A DNA stretch of 64,000 nt from a virus. The stretch covers positions 1-64,000 of the IMG/VR virus record IMGVR_UViG_3300035162_004754. The stretch is one strand, 5' to 3'. The translations under genes and the position numbers were made by a program. Below, one piece after another: positions 8,440-51,278 of the stretch (its first letter is position 1; the number at the start of each line of letters is the position of its first letter). The notes beneath the pieces were generated by a model. The model did not search any database and was not told the DNA's origin. It saw only the letters and a list, made by a program, of their open reading frames with translations.

Positions 8440-8468
8440 ATATACATTAGGAATTGAAAAAAAAAATT

Positions 8469-18909: not shown

Positions 18910-19880
18910 TGAAAATTGGATTTATTGGACCAGGTATTATACCCATTCCTCCTGATGGATGGGGTGCTGTAGAATCTTTAATATGGGAGATTGCATGTGA
19001 ACTTGGAGAAAAAGGTCATGAAGGAATGATCATTAATGATCCTGATTTGGATGAAATTGTAAAAACAGTTCAAGAAAACGATTTTGATTTTATTCATGTT
19101 TTCTATGATGTGTTCTATCCGATAATGGATGCTATTAAAAAAGTTTCTCCCAAATCAGTAACTGCCATTAGTAGTGCATATCCATATGTTGATCAACCTA
19201 ATTTTTATCCTAGAGATGGATATGCTCCTATCTATGAATGGTTTGTAAGTCAGAAAGATCATTATAATTTTTGTCTTTCTGATAAAGATTTGTTGACATA
19301 TAAAAATGGTGGAGCAGATGAATCCAAACTTATTCGTTTAGGTCTTGGTGCTCAACACAAAAATTTCAAATTTGATCTTGAATGTGAGAAGACAAACAAA
19401 ACTTTGTACATGGCAAAAATTGAAATTAGAAAACGTCAGTGGATTTATCAACCAATTGAAAGTATAGATTTTGTTGGTAGGTATTCTTCAACTACAACTT
19501 TTGATAAACTTCATAAAAGTTATATTGGAGAATGGACAACTGAAGAAAAGCATGATAATGTAACTAAGTATGCAAATTTAATGCTTCTATCTGATGGAGA
19601 AAATGGAACACCCTTAGTCATTAAAGAGGCACTTGTTTCTGGTCTTGGTATTGTGTGCTCCAGATATTGTGCATATGATCTCGATACTTCTCTTCCATTT
19701 ATTACAATCATTCCGGATGATAAATTAAATGACCTTGAATATGTTGAGAATGCAATTGAAGAGAATAGAAAGATTTCTATTACTATGCGTAAAGAAATTA
19801 GGGAATATGGTGTAAGTAATTTCTCTTGGGAAAATATTGTCAATCAATATGAAAAAGATATTATTGAAATTATGAAATGA
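18909..19880 (+). CDS. GT4-like glycosyltransferase
   Basis: 323 residues. FIGPGIIPIPPDGWGAVESL is the N-terminal acceptor-domain motif of group 1 GT-B transferases. LLSDGENGTPLVIKEALVSGLG is the C-terminal Glu-containing donor motif (EX7E-like). It is closely similar to the first half of the next gene, including the shared PIPP-GWGAVESLIW motif, which implies tandem duplication. Confidence 0.85.
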   Translation: MKIGFIGPGIIPIPPDGWGAVESLIWEIACELGEKGHEGMIINDPDLDEIVKTVQENDFDFIHVFYDVFYPIMDAIKKVSPKSVTAISSAYPYVDQPNFYPRDGYAPIYEWFVSQKDHYNFCLSDKDLLTYKNGGADESKLIRLGLGAQHKNFKFDLECEKTNKTLYMAKIEIRKRQWIYQPIESIDFVGRYSSTTTFDKLHKSYIGEWTTEEKHDNVTKYANLMLLSDGENGTPLVIKEALVSGLGIVCSRYCAYDLDTSLPFITIIPDDKLNDLEYVENAIEENRKISITMRKEIREYGVSNFSWENIVNQYEKDIIEIMK

Positions 19881-25825: not shown

Positions 25826-27114
25826 ATGGCTACAACTCTTTCAAGACAACAAACCTCTCCGTGGAATGATTTCTGCGAGTGGGTAACATCAACTAACAAT
25901 CGTTTGTATGTTGGTTGGTTCGGTGTATTGATGATCCCAACACTGTTAGCAGCAACTGTCTGCTTCATTGTCGCATTCATCGCAGCACCACCCGTCGATA
26001 TTGACGGTATCCGTGAACCCGTAGCAGGTTCACTCATGTATGGCAACAACATCATTTCTGGTGCAGTTGTCCCAAGTTCAAATGCAATCGGTCTCCACTT
26101 CTACCCCATTTGGGAAGCAGCATCTTTGGATGAGTGGCTTTACAATGGTGGTCCTTTCCAACTGGTAGTCTTCCACTTCCTTATCGGCATCTATGCTTAT
26201 ATGGGACGTGAGTGGGAACTTTCTTACCGTTTAGGTATGCGTCCATGGATCTGTGTTGCCTACTCGGCACCAGTCGCTGCTGCGAGTGCAGTATTCCTCG
26301 TCTATCCTTTCGGTCAAGGTTCTTTCTCTGATGCGATGCCTCTTGGTATTTCTGGTACTTTTAACTACATGCTTGTATTCCAGGCAGAACACAATATCCT
26401 TATGCACCCGTTCCACATGCTCGGTGTTGCTGGGGTATTCGGTGGATCTCTGTTCTCTGCTATGCATGGAAGTCTGGTTACATCTTCACTCGTCCGTGAG
26501 ACGACTGAAACTGAGTCCCAGAACTATGGTTATAAGTTCGGTCAAGAAGAAGAGACCTATAACATCGTCGCAGCCCATGGTTACTTCGGTCGTTTGATCT
26601 TCCAATATGCTTCATTCAACAACTCACGTTCCTTGCACTTCTTCCTTGCTGCATGGCCCGTTGTTGGCATCTGGTTCACCGCACTTGGTGTTTCTACGAT
26701 GGCTTTCAATTTAAATGGTTTCAACTTTAATCAGTCCATCCTTGATGGTCAGGGTCGTGTGCTCAACACATGGGCAGACGTATTGAACCGTGCCGGTCTT
26801 GGAATGGAAGTTATGCATGAGCGTCAAGTTGTGCTTTGCGCTCTTTAAATCGGATGAATTGCTGGAAACCCCAAGTGGGCAATCAGCAGCCAAGTCCTGG
26901 ATACATCCAGGAAAGGTTCAGAGACTACCTGAGGAATACAGTTTCCTTAATAACAGGTTCAAGCGTCCGACACCAGAAATGGTGATGATATAGTCCAATC
27001 CTGATAGCAATATCAGATAGTTAGGGAAAGTTTAAGAATGCACACAACTTCCCTCTTGACCTGGCATCAGCAGAATCTACTCCTGTAGCACTTACTGCTC
27101 CTTCCATCGGTTGA
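25826..27114 (+). CDS. psbA: Photosystem II D1 protein, gene split by a group I intron
   Basis: Exons 25826-26824 and 27037-27114 join as CGT|AAT to give 358 residues, the normal D1 length. Exon 1 has the conserved [48 protein letters not shown] and [20 protein letters not shown] regions. Exon 2 restores [10 protein letters not shown] and the C-terminal processing region. Without splicing the frame ends after [11 protein letters not shown] and loses the manganese-ligand C-terminus (His-Ala-His-Asn-Phe-Pro-Leu-Asp). D1 carries the reaction-centre chlorophylls and turns over quickly in light. Phage copies keep photosynthesis running during infection. Confidence 0.96.
26825..27036 (+). mobile_element. 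Group I intron in psbA (212 nt)
   Basis: The intron starts after a T (GAGCGT|CAAGTT) and ends in G (TTTAAG|AATGCA), the group I rule. GGTTCAGAGACTACC is the conserved R segment and GATGATATAGTCC the conserved S segment, forming the P7 guanosine-binding core. It has no internal gene. A 212-nt psbA intron is known from Synechococcus phage S-PM2, where a free-standing homing endonuclease lies next to it; the same layout is seen here. Confidence 0.93.
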
Positions 27115-28839: not shown

Positions 28840-29901
28840 ATGACTACTTCATCACTTTCACCCCCAATTACACAAAGAGGATGGTTCGATGTCTTGGATG
28901 ACTGGCTTAAACGGGATCGTTTTGTCTTTGTGGGTTGGTCTGGACTACTACTTCTTCCCACTGCTTATTTGTCAATTGGTGGCTGGCTTACTGGCACAAC
29001 TTTCGTTACGTCGTGGTACACCCACGGGTTGGCAACTTCCTATCTTGAAGGTGCTAATTTCCTTACAGCGGCTGTGTCAACGCCTGCTGATGCTATGGGT
29101 CATTCTCTTCTTCTACTTTGGGGTCCTGAGTCTCAAGGGGACTTTCAGCGGTGGCTCCAACTTGGAGGGCTTTGGTCCTTTGTTGCTCTCCACGGTGCAT
29201 TTGCCCTTATAGGTTTTATGTTACGTCAGTTTGAACTGGCACGTCTCATCGGTATCCGTCCCTACAATGCGATTGCTTTTTCCGGTCCTATTGCTGTATT
29301 CGTGTCTGTATTCCTCATCTATCCTTTGGGACAGTCATCTTGGTTCTTTGCGCCGAGTTTCGGTGTTGCGGCGATTTTCAGGTTCCTTCTCTTCCTCCAG
29401 GGCTTTCATAACTGGACGCTCAACCCCTTCCATATGATGGGAGTTGCTGGTATACTGGGAGGAGCACTGCTCAGTGCTATTCATGGAGTAACCGTAGAGA
29501 ATACATTGTATGAAGATGGAGAGCAAGCAAATACATTTAAAGCGTTCGATTCCACTCAGGAGGAGGAGACCTATTCGATGGTTACTGCGAACCGTTTTTG
29601 GTCGCAAATCTTCGGCATTGCTTTTAGCAATAAGCGTTGGTTGCACTTCTTTATGTTGTTTGTTCCTGTCATGGGTCTCTGGACATCTTCTATTGGCATC
29701 ATTGGGCTTGCTCTTAATCTTCGTGCTTATGATTTTGTAAGTCAAGAGATCAGAGCAGCAGAAGATCCAGAATTTGAGACAATGTACACGAAGAACATAT
29801 TATTATCGGAGGGCATCCGTGTTTGGTTGTCTCAAGTAGACCAGCCACATGAGAATTTCCAATTTCCAGAGGAAATTATGCCGAGGGGTAATGCTCTGTA
29901 A
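28840..29901 (+). CDS. psbD: Photosystem II D2 protein
   Basis: 353 residues, the standard D2 length and uninterrupted. [20 protein letters not shown] starts the protein. [20 protein letters not shown] and [20 protein letters not shown] hold the chlorophyll, plastoquinone and iron ligands. Five transmembrane helices are expected. D2 pairs with D1 in the photosystem II core. A GGAG ribosome site precedes the ATG. It is separated from psbA by the endonuclease gene and talC. Confidence 0.97.
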
Positions 29902-36360: not shown

Positions 36361-39300
36361 ATGGCATCACCAACACGGTTTCTTAGTGGTAGACAGCAAG
36401 AACAAAAAATTGGTATAGAAGGAAGTACTGATAACAAAAAAGTATTGGAGGTTGTCGGCCGAGTTGGTATTGGAACAACTATCTTTGAGACGAGAACAGA
36501 ACTAGACGTTCGTGGTAATGCAGTTGTTAGTGGTATATTAACAGTAGGTGATATAGTAGTTTCATCTGGTGTTGGTGGTGTCTTTGCGATAGAGAAATTA
36601 AGGGTAACAGGTATATCAACTTTTGTTGATATAGGTACATTTGAAAATAATCTTTTTGTTGGTGGTGATCTAGACGTAGATGGTCATACTGAACTCGACG
36701 ATGTAAATGTATCTGGTGCCTCAACCTTCACTGGTGCCATTGATGCCAATGGGTCTTTAGATGTTAATGGATTAACTGAACTCGACGATGTAAATGTATC
36801 TGGTGCCTCAACCTTCACTGGTGCAATTGATGCCAATGGTGATCTAGATGTTGATGGTCATACTGAACTTGATAACTTAAATGTATCAGGTGTTTCTACC
36901 TTCACTGGTGCCATTGATGCCAATGGGTCTTTAGATGTTGATGGATTAACTGAACTCGATGATGTAAATGTATCTGGTGCCTCAACCTTCACTGGTATTG
37001 GAACATTTTTAAGTGATCTTTTTGTTGCTGGTGACTTAAATGTTGTTGGAGATTTAGTATTTGACTCATTCACCGCAAGAAAAATTACTGTAAATGAGAA
37101 TTCCTTTCTTGGATTTGCGAGCGCTACTACATTAAATGTATCAGGTGTTTCTACCTTCACTGGTGCCATTGATGCCAATGGGTCTTTAGATGTAGATGGT
37201 CATACCGAATTAGATGATCTTAATGTTTCCGGAGTATCCACCTTTGCTTCTGCGATTGTCGGTTCTGCCGTAACAATAAGTTCTTCTGGTATTAACGTTG
37301 CTGCTGGTATTATTACGGGAACTCTTGATAATAATTTAACACTTAATACTTCCGGAACTGGATTAAGTGGAATTGCAACTTATAATAATTCTGGTGTAGT
37401 TACATTTACAGTTGCATCAAATGCTACGGATGCTAATACTGCAAGCACAATAGTTTCTCGTAATGGATCGGGTAACTTTAGTGCAGGAACAATCAGTGCT
37501 GATTTAACTGGTGTTGCTTCTACTGCAACTAAATTAGCAACCGCAAGAACATTTGAATTAACCGGAGATGTTGTTGCTTCTCAGATTAGTTTTGATGGTA
37601 CTGGTAATGTATCTTTAGCGGCAACAATCCAACCTAACCCAACAATTAGTGGAAATGTAACTATTGGTAATGACTTACAAGTTAATAATAATTTAAATGT
37701 ATCAGGAAATATTACGGTTGGTGGAACTTCTGCCACATTATTTACTGAAACATTAAGAGTAAAAGATGCTGATATTGTTCTTGGATTCACTACTAATTCT
37801 GCTGGTAATGAGGTTTCTACCGACACTACGGCAAATAATGGTGGTATTGCGATTGCATCAACAGAAGGATCTCCAATCGTTAGTTTTAATGTTGATAATA
37901 TTCCTTCCACATATAAAAATATTATGTGGTTTAAGACCAATGCTTTTACTGGTCTGAATACCGATGCTTGGTTGACAAACTATGCATTTGGTGTTGGAAC
38001 AACATCAATGTCGGCAGGCACTAAGTTTGCCGTTGGTAATATTGAGGCAGACTTTGATGATATTACATCTGTCAGACATATTAAATCATCTGGTATTGTT
38101 ACCGCATCAAGTTTTAGTGGTGATGGATCTGGATTGTTTGGAATTTCTGCTGGAACTGTTTTTGCAGAAAATTCTGCCAATCAATCTCAGACTATTCCTT
38201 TTTATGTCTCCACTGCAACTACTGATGTTGCCGGTGTTTCGACACAAAGTTTTGTATTCAATCCATCAACTAAAAGTCTTGGCATAGGAACAGATGCTCC
38301 GACATCAAATCTTCATGTTGAAGGTACATTGAATATATCAGGTGTCTCAACCTTTAGTAATAATATAGATGCTAATGGTGATCTAGACGTAGATGGTCAT
38401 ACTGAACTCGACGATGTAAATGTATCTGGTGCCTCAACCTTCACTGGTGCCATTGATGCCAATGGGTCTTTAGATGTTAATGGATTAACTGAACTCGATG
38501 ATGTAAATGTATCTGGTGCTTCTACTTTTGCTGGTGCTGCCGACTTTAATGGTGATTTAGATGTTGATGGTCATACTGAACTAGACAACTTAAATGTATC
38601 GGGTGTTTCTACCTTTGCTTCTGCAGTTAATATCAATTCCGATTTAGATGTAGACGGACATACCGAACTTGATAACGTAAATGTATCAGGTGTTTCTACT
38701 TTTAGTGATGATGTAAGATTTGTTGGTGCTGCTAATACTGATGTTGTATGGGATAAGTCTGCAAATTCATTAAACTTTGAAGATTATGCAAAAGCAACAT
38801 TTGGTGATGGTGGAGATTTAACTATTACTCATAGTAGTAATCAAAGTTCTATTTCTGAATCTGGTGGTAATGGACTCGAAGTTAAGAGTGTTAAGGTTAC
38901 TATTACTCCTAATGGTAGCACAGAAAAAATGGCAGAGTTCAATGCCAATTCTTCGGTAGAGCTCTACTTTGATGACTCTAAGAAATTAGAAACTACCGGG
39001 TATGGTATAACTGTTACTGGCGATGTTAATACTTCTAATAATATTAGTATTGCTGGTGTTTCTACTTTTGCTGGTGCCATTGATGCCAATGGGTCTTTAG
39101 ATGTTGATGGTCATACTGAACTAGACAACTTAAATGTATCGGGTGTTTCGACCTTTGCTGGTGCAATTGATGCCAATGGGTCTTTAGATGTAGATGGACA
39201 TACTGAACTTGATAACGTAAATGTATCAGGTGTTTCTACCTTCACTGGTGCAATTGATGCCAATGGGTCTTTAGATGTTGATGGTCATACTGAACTTGAT

Positions 39301-42300
39301 AACGTAAATGTATCAGGAGTTTCGACTTTTGCTGGTAGTATAGATGCTAATGGGTCTTTAGACGTAGATGGTCATACTGAATTGGATGACCTCAATGTAT
39401 CAGGTGTTTCGACCTTTGCTTCTGCGATTGTTGGTTCTGCCGTAACAATAAGTTCTTCTGGTATCAATGCTGCTACTGGTATTATAACTGCATCTTCTTT
39501 AGATGCTGCAATTTCCGAATGGGTATTAGGTGCCGATGGAACAGATAATTATACGTTTAGTGGACCTGGATTTACCGGTGCCGAAAATGATCCTACAATT
39601 TATGTGGTAAGAGGTCAAAAATATAACTTTGAAAATAAAATGGGTGCCCATCCATTTAGAATTCAAAGCGATCCAAATGGATCTACAGGAACGCAATATA
39701 ATGATGGAATAACTAATAATGATGTATCAAATGGAACTCTAGTATGGGATGTTCAGTTTGATGCTCCAGAAATTCTTTATTATCAATGTACATCTCATGC
39801 TAACATGGGGGGTAGAATTTACACAAGAAGTGATGCTGAAGATTCGATAAGTTTCGAAACTATTATTGTAGGTGGTGGTACTACAATTACTGGATCTGGT
39901 ATCAATGCTCCTACTGGTATTATAACTGCTTCTACTTTCAGTGGTTCTGGTGCATCATTAACTTCAATTCCTAATGGAGCACTAACAAACTCTAGTATTG
40001 CTATTGGTGGAGTAACTGTATCTCTTGGTGGTACTGATGCAACACCGGCATTTGACTTAAGTGATGCTACTGATTATCCTTATACATCATTGACGGGTAT
40101 TACTACCGAAATCTTAGGTGATACTACTCCACAGTTGGGTGGGAACTTAGATCTTAATAGTAAGTTTATAACCGGAACAGGTGGTATTAATGTTTCTGGT
40201 GTTGTAACTGCTACTACTTTCTCTGGTTCTGGAGCATCACTTACTAATATTCCTAATGGAGCACTAACAAACTCTAGTATTGCTATTGGTGGAGTAACTG
40301 TATCTCTTGGTGGTACTGATGCAACACCAGCATTTGACTTAAGTGATGCTACTGCTTATCCTTATACATCATTGACGGGTATCACTACCGAAATCTTAGG
40401 TGATACTACTCCACAGTTGGGTGGGAACTTAGATCTTAATAGTAAGTTTATAACCGGAACTGGTGGAGTCAATGTTACTGGTGTTGTAACTGCTACTTCT
40501 TTTGTTGGTAATGTAACTGGTGTTGCTTCTACTGCAACTAAATTAGCAACCGCAAGAACATTTGAATTAACCGGAGATGTTGTTGCTTCTCAGATTAGTT
40601 TTGATGGTACTGGTAATGTATCTTTAGCGGCAACAATCCAACCTAATAGTGTTGCTCTTGGTGGTGACACTACTGGTGATTATGTTGAGTCCATTAGTGG
40701 AACCGGAAATCAAATAACAGTAAGTAGTGGGACAGGAGAAGGTTCAACACCTGTAATTTCGATTCCAAATAACCCAACACTTCCGGGAACAACTGTTACT
40801 GTTACAACTGACTTACAAGTCAACCGCAATTTAAATGTTACTGGGAACGTAACAATTGGTGGTACTTCTGCTACATTATTTACTGAAACTTTAAAGATTA
40901 GTGACCCGGATATTATTGTTGGATTTAGAACTGATGCTGGTGGTAATGATATTTCAAATGACACTACTGCAAGTCATGGTGGTATTGCCGTTGCATCAAC
41001 AGAAGGAAGTCCCATAGTAAGTTTTGTTGGTGGTGGTGGAACAGTTCCTGTCACATATAAAAAGATCTTTTGGTTTGAGTCTGGTGCTTTTACTGGACTT
41101 GCTACTGATGCTTGGTTGACAAATTATGCATTTGGTGTTGGAACAACATCAATGTCGGCAGGCACTAAGTTTGCCGTTGGTAATATTGAGACAGACTTTG
41201 ATGATATTAAGTCTGTTAGGCACATCAATTCATCGGGTGTTGTAACTGCCACTACTTTCTCTGGTTCTGGTGCATCATTAACTTCAATTCCTAATGGAGC
41301 ACTAACAAACAATAGTGTTAATTATGGTGGAGTAACTGTATCTCTTGGTGGTACTGATGCAACACCAGCATTTGACTTGAGTGATGCTACTGCGTATCCC
41401 TATACTAGTCTTACTGGTATTACTACAGAAATTGTAGGTGATACTACTCCACAGTTAGGTGGAAACTTAGATCTTAATAGTAAGTTTATAACCGGAACTG
41501 GTGGAGTCAATGTTACTGGTGTTGTAACTGCCACTTCTTTCAGTGGTTCTGGTGCTAGTTTAACTGGAATTACTGCTGCTTCCATAGGTGCTTTGTCTGG
41601 TCTTACTATAAGAGAAGAAGGATCTGTAGCTGGATCTGCAAGTAGTGTTGGTGATATTAATTTTGTAAGTAGTAATTTAACAGCAACAGCATCTGGTATT
41701 GGTGCTACCGTTACATTATCAGATACCCCAACATTTACTAGCACTGTTATTGGAACTGGGGTTACTATTAATTCTTCCGGTATTAATGCCACTGGAGTTA
41801 TAACTGCCACATCATTTAGTGGTTCTGGTGCAAACCTTACCAACATTCCTGCTCCAGATGTAGTTACTGGTGATAAGTATAATACTGGAATTACAACATC
41901 AATTTATGTTTCAATTACTGGTGGTATTGGAACGGCAGTGTCCGGACTTACTACAGTTGCAGCAAACAATGATATCTTTATTGGTCCTGGAATTGGATAT
42001 TCATTCCCATCAACTGCGGGTAAGAGTTATATAATTGAATCTATTCATGTAACAAACATTTATAATACGCACCTTTATCTCACTTCAAGACATGATTTTA
42101 ATGGTGGTGAAAATGTTCCAACTGCACAAAGAGTCATAGTTCCCTATCAAGGTGCTTTGGAAGTCCTAGAAGAACCAATCATTGCGAAACCATCAGATAT
42201 TTTAAGATTTCAGGCATTTGCTGGTATAGGAGAAACTAGTGGAGTAGGACCAGAAGCAGTTGGAGTTAATAATGGATTGGATTCATTCATAACTTATTCT

Positions 42301-42666
42301 GAAAAAACTGATACTAATTTTATTGGAACTGGAAAAACGGTTGTTACACCAGCTGGAACAGAACTGTTCACTTCAAATACAAACCCATCTGTCATTCAAT
42401 CAATTCGATTATGTAATTATGATTTGGACTTTGATGTTGATGCATCAGTATCCATTTATCGAGGAGGAAGTGTTGGAGGTATTCTAACCACAGGTGTCAG
42501 ACAAGGATACTTGGTATATAATTTAACAGTGCCCAAGAATAGTGTAATTGAGATTTTAGAGAGACCAAAGTATCTTGCTGCAAATGACACTGTTGTTGTA
42601 GGGATTGCCGGAACCACTCTTACAAATAGTCTTTCTTCTACTTTATCCGGTAAATATATAACATAG
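36361..42666 (+). CDS. Giant repeat tail fibre with embedded cupredoxin-like domain
   Basis: 2101 residues. The N-terminal attachment segment is followed by many copies of a repeat of about 27 residues built on LDVDGHTELDDVNVSGVSTF and FTGAIDANGS, most likely stacked beta structure in a long trimeric shaft. Around residues 1055-1160 lies an unrelated insert: Gly-Ala-His1097-Pro-Phe and YYQCTSHANMGG (Cys1143, His1146, Met1149), the ligand set of type 1 copper proteins. After more repeats, a distinct C-terminal domain of about 250 residues probably forms the tip. A 133-nt block is repeated exactly 3009 nt apart, showing recent internal duplication. Confidence 0.88.
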   Translation: MASPTRFLSGRQQEQKIGIEGSTDNKKVLEVVGRVGIGTTIFETRTELDVRGNAVVSGILTVGDIVVSSGVGGVFAIEKLRVTGISTFVDIGTFENNLFVGGDLDVDGHTELDDVNVSGASTFTGAIDANGSLDVNGLTELDDVNVSGASTFTGAIDANGDLDVDGHTELDNLNVSGVSTFTGAIDANGSLDVDGLTELDDVNVSGASTFTGIGTFLSDLFVAGDLNVVGDLVFDSFTARKITVNENSFLGFASATTLNVSGVSTFTGAIDANGSLDVDGHTELDDLNVSGVSTFASAIVGSAVTISSSGINVAAGIITGTLDNNLTLNTSGTGLSGIATYNNSGVVTFTVASNATDANTASTIVSRNGSGNFSAGTISADLTGVASTATKLATARTFELTGDVVASQISFDGTGNVSLAATIQPNPTISGNVTIGNDLQVNNNLNVSGNITVGGTSATLFTETLRVKDADIVLGFTTNSAGNEVSTDTTANNGGIAIASTEGSPIVSFNVDNIPSTYKNIMWFKTNAFTGLNTDAWLTNYAFGVGTTSMSAGTKFAVGNIEADFDDITSVRHIKSSGIVTASSFSGDGSGLFGISAGTVFAENSANQSQTIPFYVSTATTDVAGVSTQSFVFNPSTKSLGIGTDAPTSNLHVEGTLNISGVSTFSNNIDANGDLDVDGHTELDDVNVSGASTFTGAIDANGSLDVNGLTELDDVNVSGASTFAGAADFNGDLDVDGHTELDNLNVSGVSTFASAVNINSDLDVDGHTELDNVNVSGVSTFSDDVRFVGAANTDVVWDKSANSLNFEDYAKATFGDGGDLTITHSSNQSSISESGGNGLEVKSVKVTITPNGSTEKMAEFNANSSVELYFDDSKKLETTGYGITVTGDVNTSNNISIAGVSTFAGAIDANGSLDVDGHTELDNLNVSGVSTFAGAIDANGSLDVDGHTELDNVNVSGVSTFTGAIDANGSLDVDGHTELDNVNVSGVSTFAGSIDANGSLDVDGHTELDDLNVSGVSTFASAIVGSAVTISSSGINAATGIITASSLDAAISEWVLGADGTDNYTFSGPGFTGAENDPTIYVVRGQKYNFENKMGAHPFRIQSDPNGSTGTQYNDGITNNDVSNGTLVWDVQFDAPEILYYQCTSHANMGGRIYTRSDAEDSISFETIIVGGGTTITGSGINAPTGIITASTFSGSGASLTSIPNGALTNSSIAIGGVTVSLGGTDATPAFDLSDATDYPYTSLTGITTEILGDTTPQLGGNLDLNSKFITGTGGINVSGVVTATTFSGSGASLTNIPNGALTNSSIAIGGVTVSLGGTDATPAFDLSDATAYPYTSLTGITTEILGDTTPQLGGNLDLNSKFITGTGGVNVTGVVTATSFVGNVTGVASTATKLATARTFELTGDVVASQISFDGTGNVSLAATIQPNSVALGGDTTGDYVESISGTGNQITVSSGTGEGSTPVISIPNNPTLPGTTVTVTTDLQVNRNLNVTGNVTIGGTSATLFTETLKISDPDIIVGFRTDAGGNDISNDTTASHGGIAVASTEGSPIVSFVGGGGTVPVTYKKIFWFESGAFTGLATDAWLTNYAFGVGTTSMSAGTKFAVGNIETDFDDIKSVRHINSSGVVTATTFSGSGASLTSIPNGALTNNSVNYGGVTVSLGGTDATPAFDLSDATAYPYTSLTGITTEIVGDTTPQLGGNLDLNSKFITGTGGVNVTGVVTATSFSGSGASLTGITAASIGALSGLTIREEGSVAGSASSVGDINFVSSNLTATASGIGATVTLSDTPTFTSTVIGTGVTINSSGINATGVITATSFSGSGANLTNIPAPDVVTGDKYNTGITTSIYVSITGGIGTAVSGLTTVAANNDIFIGPGIGYSFPSTAGKSYIIESIHVTNIYNTHLYLTSRHDFNGGENVPTAQRVIVPYQGALEVLEEPIIAKPSDILRFQAFAGIGETSGVGPEAVGVNNGLDSFITYSEKTDTNFIGTGKTVVTPAGTELFTSNTNPSVIQSIRLCNYDLDFDVDASVSIYRGGSVGGILTTGVRQGYLVYNLTVPKNSVIEILERPKYLAANDTVVVGIAGTTLTNSLSSTLSGKYIT
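37505..37637 (+). repeat. Long direct repeat inside the giant fibre gene, copy 1
   Basis: This stretch is repeated, base for base as far as I can read, at 40514-40646, an offset of exactly 1003 codons. Downstream segments are also near-identical. It encodes TGVASTATKLATARTFELTG and following residues. Confidence 0.85.
40514..40646 (+). repeat. Long direct repeat inside the giant fibre gene, copy 2
   Basis: Second copy of the 133-nt block at 37505-37637. The two could recombine in frame and delete or add 1003 codons. Confidence 0.85.
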
Positions 42667-42682
42667 TATTATTGAATTTTTT

Positions 42683-43264
42683 ATGTGTCAATTGAAAGAA
42701 GGTATTATTTTTCCGACTAATTTTTATACTGCTGATATTTTCAATGAGTATCAAAATCAAAAGTATAAAAATTTTTTAACTGAACTTTCTAATAGAACAG
42801 AGGGTGAAAGAAGAAGTAATCGTAATGGTTGGCAGAGTGATACTTTTTTGTGGAAACAAGATATTTTTAAACCACTTTTGGATGAAGCACTTAGTGCCAC
42901 ACAAATGATTGCCAAGAGATTGTCTAATAAAGAACTTCCACAAATGGTTGTGAGGGCAATGTGGGGAAATATCAATCCAAAAGGTGGATTTAATTTCACT
43001 CATGTTCATCCTTCTGGGTGGTTGAGTGGAGTTTATTATATACAATTACCTGAAGCAAATAATGAAATAGTTTTTCAGGATCCAAGACCTGCAAGAATGA
43101 TGGACTTTCAAAGAAGTTCTTTGATTACGGATGAATATTTTTCACATCATCCTAAGGTGGGAGAACTACTTTTATTTCCTTCTTGGTTGCCTCACTTTGT
43201 TTCACCAAATACATCGGATCAAAATAGAATTTCAATTTCATTTAATGTTGAGTTAATAGTATAG
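42683..43264 (+). CDS. 2OG-Fe(II) oxygenase-like protein
   Basis: 193 residues. FTHVHPSGWLSGVYYIQLPE supplies the iron-binding His pair region. HPKVGELLLFPSWLPHFVSP supplies the distal His, and NRISISFN the 2-oxoglutarate-binding Arg. The pattern fits the double-stranded beta-helix oxygenases of a putative phage hydroxylase family. It lies between the giant fibre and the propeller-like genes. A substrate among the fibre proteins or host surface is possible but unproven. Confidence 0.8.
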   Translation: MCQLKEGIIFPTNFYTADIFNEYQNQKYKNFLTELSNRTEGERRSNRNGWQSDTFLWKQDIFKPLLDEALSATQMIAKRLSNKELPQMVVRAMWGNINPKGGFNFTHVHPSGWLSGVYYIQLPEANNEIVFQDPRPARMMDFQRSSLITDEYFSHHPKVGELLLFPSWLPHFVSPNTSDQNRISISFNVELIV

Positions 43265-43329: not shown

Positions 43330-45159
43330 ATGGCACAAGGAATTTTTGGTCTTGATAGAGTATATAAAAAACAAGTTCAAAATGTAAAAAACGACAACTT
43401 TGATAGTTGGCCAGAGAGTGCCACTTATGGTTACTTTGGTGGTGGTTATAATAATCCATATCTTTCGACAGTAGACCGTATTGATTTCTCGAATGAAACT
43501 ACATCGGCACCAGGAAATAATCTAACTCAAGCAAGATATGGTTTAGCAGCAGTCTCAAGTAGTTCTTATGGTTACTTTGGTGGTGGATATTTCTCACCAC
43601 CAAATACTTATGTTACCACAGTAGACCGTCTTGATTTCTCCAATGAAACTTTCTCGGCACCAGGTAATAATTTAACTCAAGCAAGAGAAGGTTTAGCAGC
43701 AGTCTCAAGTAGTTCTTATGGATATTTTGCTGGTGGATTTACTTTCCCTCCTGCAAGTTGGAAAGATACAGTAGACCGTATTGATTTCTCCAATGAAACT
43801 ACATCGGCACCAGGTAATGATATACCTTCAGGAAGACAGGGTTTAGGAGCAACCCAAAGTAGTTCTTATGGTTACTTTGGTGGTGGTGGTAGTTCTGTTG
43901 TATCATTAGTAGACCGTATTGATTTCTCGAATGAGACTACATCGGCACCAGGTAATAATTTATCTCAAGCAAGATATAACTTAGCAGCAACCTCAAGTAG
44001 TTCTTATGGTTACTTTGGTGGTGGTGAAACTATACCACCTTATGTTACCACAGTAGACCGTATTGATTTCTCGAATGAAACTACATCGGCACCAGGTAAT
44101 AATCTACCTCAAGCAAGAGGAAGATTAGCAGCAGTCTCAAGTAGTTCTTATGGTTACTTTGGTGGTGGTACTACTCCACCTTTTGCTGCCACAGTAGACC
44201 GTATTGATTTCTCGAATGAAACCACATCGGCACCAGGTAATAATCTAACTCAAGCAAGAGAACAACTAGCAGCAGTATCCGGAGGAGCATCATACCGAAT
44301 AAAAGGTTCGAGAACTTATGGTTACTTTGGCGGTGGTGAGGCTCCACCTTATGTTGCCACAGTAGACCGTCTTGATTTCTCGAATGAGACTACATCGGCA
44401 CCAGGAAATAATCTAACTCAAGCAAGAAATGGTTTAGCAGCAGTCTCAACTAGTTCTTATGGTTACTTTGGTGGTGGTTTTGCTCCTACAGGTTATGTTA
44501 CCACAATAGATCGTATTGATTTCTCGAATGAAACTTTCTCGGCACCAGGAAATAATCTAACTCAAGCAAGATATGGTTTAGCAGCAGTCTCAAGTAATTC
44601 TTATGGTTACTTTGGTGGTGGTGAGACTCCACCTTATGTTGACACAGTAGACCGTCTTGATTACTCTAATGAAACTACATCGGCACCAGGTAAAAATCTA
44701 TCTGCAGTAAGAAGATCTTTAGCAGCAGTCTCAAGTAATTCTTATGGTTACTTTGGTGGTGGTTTTACTCCACCTTATGTTGCCACAGTAGACCGTATTG
44801 ATTTCTCTAATGAAACCACATCGGCACCAGGTAATAATCTAACTCAAGCAAGATCTGGTTTAGCAGCAGTCTCAAGTAGTTCTTATGGATACTTTGGTGG
44901 TGGACTTGCTCCACCTCTTGTTACCACAGTAGACCGTCTTGATTTCTCTAATGAAACCACATCGGCACCAGGTAATAATTTATCTCAAGCAAGATATAAC
45001 TTAGCAGCAGTCTCAAATAATTCTTATGGTTACTTTGGTGGTGGTTCATCCCCAACACGGTCTACAGTAGACCGTATTGATTTCTCGAATGAGACTACAT
45101 CGGCACCAGGTAATAATTTACCTCAAGCAAGAGAAAGTTTAGCAGCAGTCTCCAACTAA
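43330..45159 (+). CDS. 12-repeat propeller-like fibre protein, paralogue 1
   Basis: 609 residues. After a start segment (VKNDNFDSWPESATYGYFGG) come twelve copies of a kelch-like repeat of about 47 residues. Each reads YGYFGGG, a variable loop, TVDRIDFSNETTSAPGNNL, then a Gln/Ala/Arg-rich link. After six repeats there is an insert GGASYRIKGSRT, then six more. This suggests two six-bladed beta-propellers. The loops after GGG differ between repeats while the framework is nearly constant, as expected for a recognition surface. Two paralogues follow. Confidence 0.85.
   Translation: MAQGIFGLDRVYKKQVQNVKNDNFDSWPESATYGYFGGGYNNPYLSTVDRIDFSNETTSAPGNNLTQARYGLAAVSSSSYGYFGGGYFSPPNTYVTTVDRLDFSNETFSAPGNNLTQAREGLAAVSSSSYGYFAGGFTFPPASWKDTVDRIDFSNETTSAPGNDIPSGRQGLGATQSSSYGYFGGGGSSVVSLVDRIDFSNETTSAPGNNLSQARYNLAATSSSSYGYFGGGETIPPYVTTVDRIDFSNETTSAPGNNLPQARGRLAAVSSSSYGYFGGGTTPPFAATVDRIDFSNETTSAPGNNLTQAREQLAAVSGGASYRIKGSRTYGYFGGGEAPPYVATVDRLDFSNETTSAPGNNLTQARNGLAAVSTSSYGYFGGGFAPTGYVTTIDRIDFSNETFSAPGNNLTQARYGLAAVSSNSYGYFGGGETPPYVDTVDRLDYSNETTSAPGKNLSAVRRSLAAVSSNSYGYFGGGFTPPYVATVDRIDFSNETTSAPGNNLTQARSGLAAVSSSSYGYFGGGLAPPLVTTVDRLDFSNETTSAPGNNLSQARYNLAAVSNNSYGYFGGGSSPTRSTVDRIDFSNETTSAPGNNLPQARESLAAVSN
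44281..44316 (+). repeat. Conserved interpropeller linker, copy 1
   Basis: This encodes GGASYRIKGSRT between repeats 6 and 7. The same 36 nt recurs in the other two paralogues (identical in copy 2, two differences seen in copy 3). Confidence 0.85.
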
Positions 45160-45162
45160 ATA
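45156..45162 (+). promoter_or_regulatory. Late-promoter-like CTAAATA box
   Basis: CTAAATA overlapping the stop of the first propeller-like gene, 45 nt before the second. Confidence 0.5.
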
Positions 45163-45207
45163 AGAATACTTATATTATTAAACAAAACTATAATCTTATA
45201 ATTGTAA

Positions 45208-47067
45208 ATGGCAATATTTTCTCTCAACGAAGTCAGAACAGAACAGATAAAAAATGTTGCAAACGACAACTTTGAGAGTTGGCCGGAGAGTGCTACTTAT
45301 GGTTACTTTGGTGGTGGACTTGCTCCACCTGCCGATTATGTTACCACAGTAGACCGTATTGATTTCTCTAATGAAACCACATCGGCACCAGGAAATAATC
45401 TAACTCAAGCAAGAGGTTATTTAGCAGCAGTCTCAAGTAATTCTTATGGTTACTTTGGTGGTGGATATTTCTCACCACCAAATACTTATGTTACCACAGT
45501 AGACCGTCTTGATTTCTCGAATGAGACTACATCGGCACCAGGAAATAATCTAACTCAAGCAAGATATGGTTTAGCAGCAGTATCAAGTAGTTCTTATGGT
45601 TATTTTGGTGGTGGTTTTGCTCCACCTTATGTTACCACAATAGACCGTCTTGATTTCTCTAGTGAGACTACATCGGCACCAGGTAATAATCTACCTCAAG
45701 CAAGAAGTGGTTTGGCAGCAGTCTCAACTAGTTCTTATGGTTACTTTGGTGGTGGTACTGCACCACCTTATGTTACCGCAATAGATCGTATTGATTTCTC
45801 GAATGAAACTTTCTCGGCACCAGGTAATAATCTAACCCAAGCAAGAGGTTATTTAGCAACAGTTTCAACTAGTTCTTATGGTTACTTTGGTGGTGGTTCT
45901 TCTCCACCTAATGTTACCACAGTAGACCGTATTGATTTCTCTAATGAAACTACATCGGCACCAGGTAATAATTTATCTCAAGCAAGAAATGGTTTAGCAG
46001 CAGTCTCAACTAGTTCTTATGGTTACTTTGGTGGTGGTTTTACTCCACCTTATGTTACCACAATAGACCGTCTTGATTTCTCTAGTGAGACTACATCAGC
46101 ACCAGGTAATAATTTACCGGCAGGAAGACGTGCTTTAGCAGCAGTATCCGGAGGAGCATCATACCGAATAAAAGGTTCGAGAACTTATGGTTACTTTGGT
46201 GGTGGTGATACTGCGCCTGGAGCACCTGGTAGTGTAGCAACAGTAGACCGTATTGATTTTTCGAATGAGACTACATCGGCACCAGGAAATGATCTAACTC
46301 AAGCAAGACGTTCGAACGCAGCAGTCTCAAGTAATTCTTATGGTTACTTTGGTGGTGGTTTTGCTCCACCTGGTAGTGTAGCAACAGTAGACCGTATTGA
46401 TTTTTCTAATGAAACTGTATCGGCACCAGGTAAGGATCTACCTGTAGCAAACCAGGCTTTAGCAGCAGTCTCAAGTAGTTCTTATGGTTACTTTGGTGGT
46501 GGTTTTATTCCCAGCTCGACTGCTGTAGTAAACCGTTTTGATTTTTTTAGTGAAACTTTCTCGGCACCAGGAAATGATCTAACTCAAGCAAGAGCTAGTT
46601 TAGCAGCAGTCTCAAATAGTTCTTATGGTTACTTTGGTGGTGGTTCACCAAAACTTACTACAGTAGATCGTATTGATTTCTCGAATGAAACTGTATCGGC
46701 ACCGGGTAATAATCTACCTTTAGGAAGAAATGGTTTAGGAGCAGTCTCAGGTAACTCTTATGGTTACTTTGCTGGTGGAGAAAATTATGTCAGTCCATCT
46801 ACTAGCTATCGTGACGATGTATTTCGTATGGATTTCTCGAATGAAACTTTTGCAGGAATCGTTCTTGCAAATAATTTATCCGCAAAGAAAGCTAGTTTAG
46901 CAGGAACCTCAAACAATTCTTATGGTTACTTTGGTGGTGGTTCGGGTCTTCCTGTACCTAATTATCTTGCCACAGTAGATCGTATTGATTTCACTACTCA
47001 TATTTGTTCAGCAACAGGAAATAATTTACCTCAGGCCAGATTTGGTTTAGCAGCAGTATCCAACTAA
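45208..47067 (+). CDS. 12-repeat propeller-like fibre protein, paralogue 2
   Basis: 619 residues with the same plan as paralogue 1: a start segment ending ANDNFESWPESATYGYFGGG, six repeats, GGASYRIKGSRT, then six repeats. Repeats 1-6 resemble paralogue 1. Repeats 7-12, including the divergent YGYFAGGENYVSPSTSYRDD repeat 11, resemble paralogue 3. This mosaic pattern implies recombination at or near the linker. It is probably a virion adhesin. Confidence 0.85.
   Translation: MAIFSLNEVRTEQIKNVANDNFESWPESATYGYFGGGLAPPADYVTTVDRIDFSNETTSAPGNNLTQARGYLAAVSSNSYGYFGGGYFSPPNTYVTTVDRLDFSNETTSAPGNNLTQARYGLAAVSSSSYGYFGGGFAPPYVTTIDRLDFSSETTSAPGNNLPQARSGLAAVSTSSYGYFGGGTAPPYVTAIDRIDFSNETFSAPGNNLTQARGYLATVSTSSYGYFGGGSSPPNVTTVDRIDFSNETTSAPGNNLSQARNGLAAVSTSSYGYFGGGFTPPYVTTIDRLDFSSETTSAPGNNLPAGRRALAAVSGGASYRIKGSRTYGYFGGGDTAPGAPGSVATVDRIDFSNETTSAPGNDLTQARRSNAAVSSNSYGYFGGGFAPPGSVATVDRIDFSNETVSAPGKDLPVANQALAAVSSSSYGYFGGGFIPSSTAVVNRFDFFSETFSAPGNDLTQARASLAAVSNSSYGYFGGGSPKLTTVDRIDFSNETVSAPGNNLPLGRNGLGAVSGNSYGYFAGGENYVSPSTSYRDDVFRMDFSNETFAGIVLANNLSAKKASLAGTSNNSYGYFGGGSGLPVPNYLATVDRIDFTTHICSATGNNLPQARFGLAAVSN
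46150..46185 (+). repeat. Conserved interpropeller linker, copy 2
   Basis: Identical to the linker at 44281-44316 as far as I can read, again between repeats 6 and 7. Confidence 0.85.
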
Positions 47068-47074
47068 ATATGGG

Positions 47075-47082
47075 TATAAATA
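47075..47082 (+). promoter_or_regulatory. T4-type late promoter TATAAATA
   Basis: An exact match 27 nt before the gene at 47109, with a CTAAATA just upstream at the previous stop. Confidence 0.65.
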
Positions 47083-47108
47083 TATAAAATTGGTATTTTA
47101 TAATTTTT

Positions 47109-47942
47109 ATGACTAACAATTATGAAGCGATTGCACTTGCATCATCTACGGAAGTTTTGGATGATAAAAATGAATTCATGTTCAAAGTTCTCAATGAAGC
47201 AAATCGATGGATTGAAAGTGAAGTAGAACTTGCACAAGGTCGTTCAGATTTTCAAATTGAAAAGTTTATTGTTCATGATAGTTTTACTATTCCATCTGCA
47301 TTTAAATCTGCTTTAATTAATCGTAAGAGTGTGGCAGAAAATCTTCTTTCAAAAATTATTGATGCAAAGAAAGAAGCAAGAGAGTTTCATTATAAGTGGG
47401 AAGGAAAGGATAAGACACAACCAATCTGGTGGAAGACCCGTGATGGTGGTGAAGAATTATGTTGGTATGATATTGATGAGTTTCATTTTCATCGTATGCT
47501 TGAGGGACTTAATCACGGTTTCAAAGCATCGGTCCAAGAACTTGAATGTTTTGATAAATTGATTAGTCGTTTGATTGAACTGAATGGTGGTAAATTAGTA
47601 AGCAAAGAACAATTTGATGCAGACCAACCAGATTATTGGGAGAGAAGACTTTCGAATCAATCTATTGATGATTTGTTTGCCGCAAAAACTGGTGTGAATG
47701 CAGGTAATATTCGTTCTATGAGAAGAGCAAGTGCTCCTACTGTATTAGGAAATGATGTAAATAGAACTAAAGGATCATTTGGTGATCCAACTAATCCTCT
47801 TGACTTTCTGAATAAACTTCAAGAGAATGTTTCTGCCGGTATTTCTGAAATTACTGGTATGGATCAAAAAATTCTTTCATCTATTGAGGAAGAACAAAAA
47901 CAATTTAATGGATCATTATTTAACCAAGAATTAAAACAGTAA
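47109..47942 (+). CDS. Hypothetical structural-region protein
   Basis: 277 residues, helical and acidic with a Trp-rich centre (YKWEGKDKTQPIWWKTRDGG) and a Gln/Lys-rich end. It lies between two propeller paralogues and has its own late promoter. It could be a fibre chaperone, a connector or a non-structural protein. No family is recognised. Confidence 0.7.
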   Translation: MTNNYEAIALASSTEVLDDKNEFMFKVLNEANRWIESEVELAQGRSDFQIEKFIVHDSFTIPSAFKSALINRKSVAENLLSKIIDAKKEAREFHYKWEGKDKTQPIWWKTRDGGEELCWYDIDEFHFHRMLEGLNHGFKASVQELECFDKLISRLIELNGGKLVSKEQFDADQPDYWERRLSNQSIDDLFAAKTGVNAGNIRSMRRASAPTVLGNDVNRTKGSFGDPTNPLDFLNKLQENVSAGISEITGMDQKILSSIEEEQKQFNGSLFNQELKQ

Positions 47943-47948
47943 AATCTT

Positions 47949-49850
47949 ATGGCTATCATAGGAGACGTATTTGGATTAACTTCTATTTACGAGAGACAAG
48001 TAGAAAATATTGCAAACGACAACTTTGAGAGTTGGCCGGAGAGTGCTACTTATGGTTACTTTGCTGGTGGTTCTAATCCACCTTCGTCTCCTTCTTATGT
48101 TGCCACAGTAGATCGTATTGATTTCTTGAATGAAACTGCATCACTACCAGGTAATGATTTACCTTCAGGAAGAAAAAGTTTCGGAGAAGTCTCAAGTAGT
48201 TCTTATGGTTACTTTGGTGGAGGTTATGATGGTTCGAACCATATTAATACAATAAACCGTCTTGATTTTTCGAATGAAACTTTTTCGGCACCAGGTAATA
48301 ATTTATCTCAAGTAAGACAGGGTTTAGGAGGAACTCAAAGTAGTTCTTATGGTTACTTTGCTGGTGGATCAGATCCAGCTGTGTCTCCATCTTATGTTGC
48401 CACAGTAGATCGTATTGATTTCTCTAGTGAAACAATGTCAACACCAGGTAATAATTTACCTTCAGGAAGAAAGGATATTGGAACATCTCAAAGCAGTTCT
48501 TATGGTTACTTTGGTGGTGGTTATGATGGTTCGAACCATATTAATACAATAAACCGTCTTGATTTCTCTAGTGAAACTTTTTCGGCACCGGGTAATAATC
48601 TATCTCAAGTAAGACAGGGTTTAGCAGCAACCCAAAGTAGTTCTTATGGTTACTTTGGTGGTGGATCTGATCCAGCTGTGTCTCCATCTTATGTTGCCAC
48701 AGTAGATCGTATTGATTTCTTGAATGAAACTGCATCACTACCAGGTAATAATTTACCTTCAGGAAGAAAGGATATTGGAACAGTCTCAAGTAGTTCTTAT
48801 GGTTACTTTGGTGGAGGTTATGATGGTTCGAACCATATTAATACAATAAACCGTCTTGATTTTTCGAATGAAACTTTTTCGGCACCAGGTAATAATTTAT
48901 CTCAAGTAAGGCAGGGTTTAGGAGGAGTATCCGGAGGAGCATCATACCGAATAAAAGGATCAAGAACTTATGGTTACTTTGGTGGTGGTGATACTGCGCC
49001 TGGAGCACCTGGTAGTGTAGCAACAGTAGACCGTATTGATTTCTCGAATGAGACTACATCGGCACCAGGTAATGATCTAACTCAAGCAAGACGTGCGTCC
49101 GCAGCAACCGAAAGTAGTTTTTATGGATACTTTGGTGGTGGTTTTGCTCCACCTAACGTGGACACAATAGACCGTATTGATTTCTCTAATGAAACTGTAT
49201 CGGCACCAGGTAAGGATCTACCTGTAGCAAACCAGGGTTTAGCAGCAGTCTCAAGTAGTTCTTATGGTTACTTTGGTGGTGGTGCTTCTCCCAGCTCGAC
49301 TGCCGTAGTAAACCGTTTTGATTTCTCTAGTGAAACTTTCTCGGCACCAGGAAATGATCTAACTCAAGCAAGAAATAATTTAGCAGCAGTCTCAAATAGT
49401 TCTTATGGTTACTTTGGTGGTGGTGGTTATCCTGAAAAATCAACAGTAGATCGTATTGATTTCTCGAATGAAACTGTATCGGCACCGGGTAATAATCTAC
49501 CTTCGGGGAGACATGGTTTAGGAGCAGTCTCAGGTAACTCTTATGGTTACTTTGCTGGTGGAGAAAATTATGTCAGTCCATCTACTAGCTATCGTGCTGA
49601 TGTATTTCGTATGGATTTCTCGAATGAAACTTTTGCAGGAATCGTTGCTGCAAATAATTTACCCGTGAAGAAATTTGGTACAGCAGGAACCTCAAGTAAT
49701 TCTTATGGTTACTTTGGTGGTGGTAATGGTCTTCCTTCACCCAGTTATCTTGCCACAGTAGATCGTATTGATTTCACTACTCATATTTGTTCAGCAACAG
49801 GAAATAATCTACCTCAAGCAAGAAGTAGTTTAGCAGCAGTATCAAACTGA
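47949..49850 (+). CDS. 12-repeat propeller-like fibre protein, paralogue 3
   Basis: 633 residues with the same plan of six repeats, GGASYRIKGSRT and six repeats. In the first six, two loop types alternate strictly (SDPAVSPSYV-type with YDGSNHINT-type), which suggests expansion by doubling a two-repeat unit. The second half closely matches paralogue 2. It differs from the other two in the N-terminal segment (FGLTSIYERQVENIANDNFE). It is probably an adhesin component. Confidence 0.85.
   Translation: MAIIGDVFGLTSIYERQVENIANDNFESWPESATYGYFAGGSNPPSSPSYVATVDRIDFLNETASLPGNDLPSGRKSFGEVSSSSYGYFGGGYDGSNHINTINRLDFSNETFSAPGNNLSQVRQGLGGTQSSSYGYFAGGSDPAVSPSYVATVDRIDFSSETMSTPGNNLPSGRKDIGTSQSSSYGYFGGGYDGSNHINTINRLDFSSETFSAPGNNLSQVRQGLAATQSSSYGYFGGGSDPAVSPSYVATVDRIDFLNETASLPGNNLPSGRKDIGTVSSSSYGYFGGGYDGSNHINTINRLDFSNETFSAPGNNLSQVRQGLGGVSGGASYRIKGSRTYGYFGGGDTAPGAPGSVATVDRIDFSNETTSAPGNDLTQARRASAATESSFYGYFGGGFAPPNVDTIDRIDFSNETVSAPGKDLPVANQGLAAVSSSSYGYFGGGASPSSTAVVNRFDFSSETFSAPGNDLTQARNNLAAVSNSSYGYFGGGGYPEKSTVDRIDFSNETVSAPGNNLPSGRHGLGAVSGNSYGYFAGGENYVSPSTSYRADVFRMDFSNETFAGIVAANNLPVKKFGTAGTSSNSYGYFGGGNGLPSPSYLATVDRIDFTTHICSATGNNLPQARSSLAAVSN
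48933..48968 (+). repeat. Conserved interpropeller linker, copy 3
   Basis: Same linker as at 44281 and 46150, with two base differences seen near its end. Confidence 0.83.
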
Positions 49851-49881: not shown

Positions 49882-50544
49882 ATGAATGATATACTTAGAA
49901 ATGTATTGATACAACCAAAAGTTGTATCAAAAGAAGGAATTGATTTCTTAGTTAATCATGCAAAAAATGCACCCAAAGATAAAATGGGTGTATTTGATGG
50001 AGAGAAAGCAAATCAAAACAAAGAAGGTCATCCATCAAGAGTTGATTTGAATGTAAGAAATGTAGATTGCTCTGATACTTCAAAAATTATTGAAGAGATT
50101 AAAGAACTTTATAATAATATTGTTCATCACGTAATCAATCCTTTTTATGAGTTTAAAATAAGAGATAGTGAGTCTCCTCAGTTACTCATATATGAACCAG
50201 GAGGACACTATAAATCTCATTATGATGCAGTATCAAGGTGGAAAAACCCTGATGGATCTATTATCTGGAAGAAGTCTGTAGATAGAGATTTATCAACTAT
50301 TCTTTTTTTAAATGATGATTTTGAAGGTGGAGAATTTGTATTCCCAGATCTCAGAGTACGTATCAAACCAGAACCAGGTTTATTAGTTGCCTTTCCATCT
50401 TCACAGTTTTATCTCCATAAAGTAGAACCAGTAATTTCAGGAACTCGTTATGCAATGGTAAACTGGATGACCGTTCAAGGTATGCCTACTAAAGCGGAGA
50501 TTGATAAAGAGATAGAAGATAAATACAATATAAATGTGTACTGA
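49882..50544 (+). CDS. Prolyl 4-hydroxylase-like 2OG-Fe(II) oxygenase
   Basis: 220 residues. HYKSHYDAVSRW has the His-x-Asp iron motif, TILFLNDDFEGGEFVFPDLR is the core strand typical of prolyl 4-hydroxylases, and AFPSSQFYLHKVEPVISGTR holds the distal His and the Arg/Lys for 2-oxoglutarate. It is predicted to hydroxylate a protein or small molecule using iron, oxygen and 2-oxoglutarate. It is the second such enzyme in the adhesion block. Fibre proteins are possible targets, but this is inference. Confidence 0.88.
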   Translation: MNDILRNVLIQPKVVSKEGIDFLVNHAKNAPKDKMGVFDGEKANQNKEGHPSRVDLNVRNVDCSDTSKIIEEIKELYNNIVHHVINPFYEFKIRDSESPQLLIYEPGGHYKSHYDAVSRWKNPDGSIIWKKSVDRDLSTILFLNDDFEGGEFVFPDLRVRIKPEPGLLVAFPSSQFYLHKVEPVISGTRYAMVNWMTVQGMPTKAEIDKEIEDKYNINVY

Positions 50545-50549
50545 TAAAA

Positions 50550-51278
50550 ATGTCTCAATTAATTAAACACTTTTTAGTGGATAGAGATACTGGAGAATGG
50601 ATAAAGGGTAAAATTAGAGGGTATATATTTCCAAACTTAAAGGGATTGGAAATTGTTTATCGTTTAACTGATGTAAATGGAGATCATATCTGCCTATCAA
50701 AAGTTCCAGAGTATTTTGAGTATTCGAAAACTGTAACTCCAAGTGTCTTAACTGAATATCAAAATGATTCAAATATTACAGTAGTAAGTTCTACTGAAAA
50801 GCAGGTTGAAGAACCTATTCTAAACGAAGAAACTGGAGAACCAACAGGTGAAACAACTACAGTAACTTTGCATGATGTAACTTATAGAGAAGCATATACT
50901 ATTGTAGAAAACGATGGACTCAAAATTTTAACTCAAGAACAATGGAACACTGAGATTTCTAATTATGATGCAAGACAAACTGAAAAAAGATATAGTGAAA
51001 TAAGAATAGTTAGAGATGAAGTTTTGAAAGATACTGATTGGATGGTTACAAAGACAACAGAGAGTGGGAGTAATTTATCAGATGAATTTAAGAATTGGAG
51101 AACCACTCTAAGAGATTTACCATCTGTTGGAATTACAACAGACACTTTCCCAGCAACTCCAGATTCAATTCAATTTGATCAGAATATAACTAAAGACTAT
51201 TCCCAAAAATTAAGATCTATTGTATTGATTAATGATACTCTTCCTGCATTGCCTGAAGAGGATTTAGGTGGTGAGTAA
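50550..51278 (+). CDS. Tail fibre assembly or chaperone-like protein
   Basis: 242 residues. The first 110 are beta-rich (FLVDRDTGEWIKGKIRGYIF). The C-terminal half has RIVRDEVLKDTDWMVTKTTE and FKNWRTTLRDLPSVG. This resembles the Arg-Asp...Thr-Asp-Trp...Arg-x-Leu-Arg-x-Pro pattern shared by tail-fibre assembly and tail chaperone proteins. A helper for the adjacent fibres is the most likely role. Its end overlaps the convergent gene 51264-51842. Confidence 0.72.
   Translation: MSQLIKHFLVDRDTGEWIKGKIRGYIFPNLKGLEIVYRLTDVNGDHICLSKVPEYFEYSKTVTPSVLTEYQNDSNITVVSSTEKQVEEPILNEETGEPTGETTTVTLHDVTYREAYTIVENDGLKILTQEQWNTEISNYDARQTEKRYSEIRIVRDEVLKDTDWMVTKTTESGSNLSDEFKNWRTTLRDLPSVGITTDTFPATPDSIQFDQNITKDYSQKLRSIVLINDTLPALPEEDLGGE

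Follow-up and report, generated by a model that had tools for sequence, protein, structure and literature searches.

Gene organization of the locus

The window analysed here is a 64,000-nt stretch of the virus record IMGVR_UViG_3300035162_004754, which is itself 75 kb in length and possibly incomplete. Because photosystem D1-like, PhoH, and tail-fibre genes are present in the 75-kb record, the virus was identified as a cyanophage. Two photosystem D1-like genes were assigned by PHROG (25826–26848 and 28840–29901), one of which may encode D2. A glycan-related island with genes for nucleotide-sugar epimerases and a fused glycosyltransferase (8454–9515, 14175–15200, and 19877–21544) is located upstream of the tail genes, and positions 36361–42666 encode a highly repetitive structural protein of 2101 aa containing DLDVDGHTELDNLNVSGVSTFTGAIDANG-type repeats. 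ORFs related to the latter vary greatly in length among relatives.

Three genes for double-propeller proteins (types A, B, and C) lie between PHROG tail-fibre genes (upstream) and a tail fibre assembly gene (downstream), and genes for 2OG-Fe(II) oxygenases are present on both sides of the cluster. The features identified are as follows.

42683..43264, + strand: 2OG-Fe(II) oxygenase (PF13759), upstream of the cluster
43330..45159, + strand: type A double-propeller protein, 609 aa, 12 kelch-like repeats
43330..43425, + strand: type A anchor, residues 1–32, type conserved across phages
43426..44280, + strand: type A propeller 1, repeats 1–6, fold via homology to the type C model
44281..44316, + strand: type A linker, GGASYRIKGSRT
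44317..45156, + strand: type A propeller 2, repeats 7–12, from the repeat split
45208..47067, + strand: type B double-propeller protein, 619 aa, 12 repeats
45208..45297, + strand: type B anchor, residues 1–30, type conserved across phages
45298..46149, + strand: type B propeller 1, from the repeat split
46150..46185, + strand: type B linker, GGASYRIKGSRT
46186..47064, + strand: type B propeller 2, sharing 88% identity with propeller 2 of type C in this genome
47109..47942, + strand: 277-aa protein of unknown function, immediately before type C
47949..49850, + strand: type C double-propeller protein, 633 aa, 12 repeats, the one modelled
47949..48050, + strand: type C anchor, residues 1–34, predicted helix at residues 10–22
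48051..48932, + strand: type C propeller 1, modelled as a six-bladed kelch propeller, sharing 94% identity with propeller 1 of type B in contig L008
48933..48968, + strand: type C linker, GGASYRIKGSRT, low model confidence, breakpoint of cassette swaps
48969..49847, + strand: type C propeller 2, from the repeat split and the model
49882..50544, + strand: 2OG-Fe(II) oxygenase (PF13640), closest solved relatives PKHD-type and prolyl hydroxylases
50550..51278, + strand: tail fibre assembly protein (PHROG 4912), weak Phage_tail_APC match

The interval 43330–49850, to which the original prediction assigned three paralogous repeat proteins, also covers the unrelated 277-aa gene located between the second and third propeller genes. 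Gene order varies among relatives, and the 277-aa gene is found directly before the type C gene wherever both were seen. In many relatives, a glycosyltransferase-like gene (weak match) precedes the type A gene, and genes for glycosyltransferase–FkbM methyltransferase fusions reside between the propeller genes. A sulfotransferase gene lies directly upstream of the type B gene in many of them (L012:9489–10316, L006, L011, L016, L030, and Synechococcus phage S-SKS1); the window contains no sulfotransferase gene at this position.

Repeat organization and predicted fold

Splitting at the YGYF[GA]GG motif yielded exactly 12 repeats in each of the three proteins, and the arrangement of six repeats, a fixed linker, and six more repeats described in the original prediction was thereby confirmed. 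The repeats comprise 44–54 residues (56–57 residues for repeat 6 plus the linker), and the linker GGASYRIKGSRT sits between repeats 6 and 7 in all three proteins. This layout cannot be attributed to chance, because it is also kept in relatives sharing merely ~50% identity. When a repeat HMM was applied to 101 proteins from the relatives, 12 repeats were found in 89, 18 in 5, and 10 or 11 in 7. Extra residues (~9) recur only after repeat 6 in the 12-repeat proteins and, where 18 repeats are present, only after repeats 6 and 12. Closed rings of six blades demand counts of this kind, namely 12 or 18 with a joint after every sixth repeat. The 18-repeat relatives (932–944 aa), which are predicted to be triple propellers, derive from three loci (L078:10479–13292, L083, and L094). 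Their first joint contains the sequence NWPES, which is also found where the anchor passes into propeller 1; judged by its occurrence at both sites, this motif looks like a propeller entry strap.

The type C protein was modelled by AlphaFold2 using an in-register family alignment of 82 sequences (mean pLDDT, 88.9; pTM, 0.55); with only the three window proteins as the alignment, the pLDDT was 39. In the model, residues 34–329 match six-bladed kelch propellers, including the designed protein SAKe6 and human KEAP1, with Z scores of 41–42 and an rmsd of 1.6–1.8 Å over 281–290 residues, in agreement with the propeller fold originally proposed. The second half exhibits the same strand pattern with similar confidence and is also predicted to form a propeller, although on the evidence of this one model only. 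Strands were predicted at residues 325–329, just before the linker, and at 629–632, at the C-terminus, which is what separate ring closure in each half would predict. Residues 331–337 of the linker have pLDDT values of <50, which, together with the pTM of 0.55, suggests that the two rings are probably joined flexibly; their mutual arrangement is not determined by the model. At the N-terminus, a helix (residues 10–22) followed by a low-confidence stretch was predicted.

PF24681 scored 59.6, 58.8, and 66.5 bits in the three window proteins (Pfam cut-off, 50), and PF13415 was above its cut-off in two of the three. Among the hallmarks of kelch propellers, four-stranded blades in a closed ring are present in the predicted model of residues 34–329, and a double glycine after the second strand is found in all 36 window repeats (YGYF[GA]GG). 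The classical Tyr and Trp are not conserved: the Tyr position is mostly occupied by Ile or Leu (RIDF/RLDF), and only four Trp residues occur across the three proteins, three of which reside in the anchors. As the classical motif is degenerate, the proteins were classed as a divergent kelch-type propeller family on the basis of profile and fold evidence. Their Cys and Lys contents are very low, and no effector or partner domain was detected beside the propellers when the three proteins were searched with curated family models.

Variable positions

The variability proposed for the loops was tested across isolates, and the loops after GGG proved far more variable than the framework. In the 82-protein alignment, the mean entropy was 0.45 bits for YGYFGGG, 1.04 bits for TVDRIDFSNET, and 2.82 bits for the loop after GGG, and it reached 3.2–3.4 bits at the two positions following the conserved Arg of each repeat. 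This Arg aligns in a profile alignment with the Arg of MNTRRSGVGV in SAKe6, and KEAP1 residues in contact with the ligand are located one or two positions past the equivalent Arg. The placement of the GGG loop and the post-Arg positions on the same face is an inference from this alignment and the KEAP1 contacts rather than from a mapped model. The support for a double propeller bearing a variable surface is good, that for the second ring coming from the strand pattern in one model only, while presence in virions and recognition of receptors are inferred. The variable loops contain 15% proline, and PP occurs in 33% of them, compared with 16% of shuffled loops; enzymatic modification of the loops is a possibility and no more.

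Three fixed anchors

The three types are defined by their first 30–34 residues (A, IFGLDRVYKKQVQNV; B, IFSLNEVRTEQIKNV; and C, GDVFGLTSIYERQVENI). In the seven phage records searched, the anchor was present three times in each, with only partial matches for two of the three anchors in the L078 record, both on 18-repeat proteins. Apart from one 13-residue, chance-like match, it was not found on any other protein in these seven records. As only propeller genes were found, no docking partner was identified by this search.

Anchors and bodies show different relationships in the fifteen complete trios. The nearest anchor was of the same type in all 45 cases. In 18 cases the nearest body belonged to the same genome and in 16 to the same type, the remaining 11 being neither; by simple counting, ~2 same-genome nearest bodies would be expected at random. 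We conclude that the three proteins represent old fixed slots, marked by anchors A, B, and C, that receive swapped propellers, the main point of the locus and one that the original prediction had missed.

Exchange of propellers

Between the window and contig L008, flanking proteins are 95–100% identical and anchors 97–100%, whereas the bodies are only 58–74% identical. Propeller 1 of type C in the window is 94% identical to propeller 1 of type B in L008 and ≤67% identical to any other, and propellers 2 of window types B and C are 88% identical to one another, with others at ≤68%. In the window/L008 propeller comparisons, DNA identity switches at the anchor/entry region and at the linker. An all-pairs scan for sharp changes in identity detected 12 discordant pairs, in 11 of which the break lies ≤8 residues from the linker; several pairs share sequences, so that by our count they represent roughly eight separate events. 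The single-breakpoint method was unsuccessful for one pair (L007 type B and L016 type A), probably owing to a large alignment gap.

The clearest replacements are seen between near-identical phages. Contigs L054 and L066 share 99.6% identity over 6,040 bp, ending ~50 bp beyond propeller 1 of type B; propeller 2 of this gene then retains only repeat-level similarity (45% identity), and 98.0% identity resumes just before the stop codon. Between L029 and L033, propeller 1 of type A has been replaced between the anchor and the linker. The unit of replacement is the whole propeller, and the breakpoints lie at the anchor, the linker, and the 3' end.

These combinations could in principle be chimeras generated at the conserved linker and entry sequences during short-read metagenome assembly, the real genes having diverged in the ordinary way. 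Every sequence except that of S-SKS1 is metagenomic, and the breakpoints fall in the most conserved DNA, where an assembler would also err. Nevertheless, three assemblies carry the L054-type combination and two the L066-type (the samples, however, may be related), the flanks of the L054/L066 pair are continuous on both sides at 98–99.6% identity, and in many contigs the bodies have diverged much further than the flanks, which makes assembly error a very improbable source of the swaps.

The linker does not appear to be a specially codon-conserved recombination site, the majority-codon fraction being 0.89 in the linker versus 0.86 in the propellers. A diversity-generating retroelement was rejected, because the changes occur in blocks and no reverse transcriptase was found: RVT_1 had no match in the 75-kb record of the window (possibly incomplete), S-SKS1, or three relatives.

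Comparison with known systems

The only isolated relative found was Synechococcus phage S-SKS1 (Llyrvirus), whose propeller proteins (PHROG 19111) are accompanied by the same three anchors, 277-aa neighbour, oxygenase, and fibre-assembly genes. Unlike those of the window, its propeller genes are split into several ORFs in GenBank (HQ633071.1, 193855–208007; L001) and annotated only as hypothetical, and a sulfotransferase gene lies between two of them. The linear record appears to end within one of the propeller genes. Either real breakage or a sequencing problem in the repeats may be responsible. A pattern search of the species genome collection, of limited sensitivity, detected no bacterial relatives.

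In T4-like phages, tail-fibre tips (gp37/gp38) are mosaic, and host-range tips are exchanged by recombination at conserved stretches. Exchange of tips or propellers is thus common to both systems, but the fold differs and the window has six slots on three anchors. With KEAP1/KLHL proteins and SAKe6, the window family shares six four-stranded blades, GG after the second strand, and Arg before the variable positions; it differs in the replacement of the kelch Trp/Tyr, in lacking a BTB or other domain, and, together with its relatives, in carrying two or three tandem propellers on an anchor. Kelch propellers also occur in jumbo tailed phages (CBB_550/552/554, PhiPA3, and BcepSaruman) and were matched by fold in BFVD, but identity in the fold alignments is only 14–24%, and no description of an anchor trio or propeller swapping was found for them. 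CBB_552 has been detected in the virion of phage CBB by mass spectrometry, and this phage also bears tail whiskers (PMC5259590). Neither these proteins nor an anchored cassette-swapping trio was found described in the open-access literature; phage kelch propellers are already known, as are mosaic fibre tips, but no account of six swappable slots on three anchors was found.

Proposed function

The three genes most probably encode virion arms, likely part of the tail-fibre apparatus, in which a fixed anchor carries two six-bladed kelch propellers for exchangeable host-surface binding; we assign this reading a rough probability of 0.68, with the location and ligand being inferred. Each arm would begin with an N-terminal anchor of one of the three conserved types, consisting of a short helix and a flexible stretch, and would continue into a pair of six-bladed kelch propellers connected through the conserved linker. 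The loops after GGG and the two post-Arg residues would probably lie on one face, an inferred binding surface for the host. Specificity would change mainly through the replacement of whole propellers, by an inferred mechanism of homologous recombination at anchor/entry, linker, and 3' sequences, and propellers would be exchanged both between phages and among the three genes of one phage. Two features expected of receptor-binding proteins are present, namely tail-fibre surroundings with an assembly gene and a constant attachment part combined with a hypervariable part (anchors 97–100% and bodies 58–74% identical to those of L008). The combination of a constant attachment part with a closed binding domain that changes quickly, encoded in a fibre-gene setting, matches the pattern of host-recognition proteins and favours virion arms, although receptor binding and virion location themselves remain inferred; no proteomics or binding data for this phage group were found in the open-access literature. 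The kelch protein in the CBB virion (PMC5259590) likewise favours this reading.

The proteins might alternatively be virion decorations, for example whiskers on the head or tail, that adhere without specificity to glycans, cell debris, or other virions and do not determine the host, their variation reflecting avoidance of binding or a relaxed surface. The co-occurrence of kelch proteins and tail whiskers in phage CBB (PMC5259590) is compatible with decoration, as are the glycosyltransferase, methyltransferase, and sulfotransferase genes among the propeller genes of relatives. We nevertheless consider it rather unlikely, because the genes sit between fibre genes and a fibre-assembly gene and because the framework is strongly kept while the loops vary, which is not the behaviour of a generally relaxed protein. 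Kelch domains of poxviruses and eukaryotes serve as intracellular adaptors, and a role as binding adaptors that hijack host proteins in the infected cell, and change along with these proteins, would be a third explanation that no proteomics excludes. Location in the tail-fibre region, the lack of an adjacent effector or partner domain, the very low Cys and Lys contents, and the presence of three short, conserved anchors that include a flexible stretch all argue against such a role, leaving it quite improbable.

Returning to virion arms, their recognition may be combinatorial: six slots, two per fixed anchor, would draw on a pool of propellers circulating among phages and slots, with the linker and entry as recombination joints, and enzymes whose genes surround or separate the propeller genes may hydroxylate the loop prolines and add glycans or sulfate to the proteins. 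This extension is tentative, and we regard it as somewhat more doubtful than probable.

Among the cells killed by marine cyanophages are some of the most abundant photosynthetic ones, and for most of these phages the binding target is unknown. The locus supplies defined candidate binding modules with natural swaps in near-identical phages, making the link between propeller and host directly testable. Closed folds traded whole also provide a clear case of recombination that respects domain borders, and the exchange of propellers suggests a fast route for altering what the virus sticks to.
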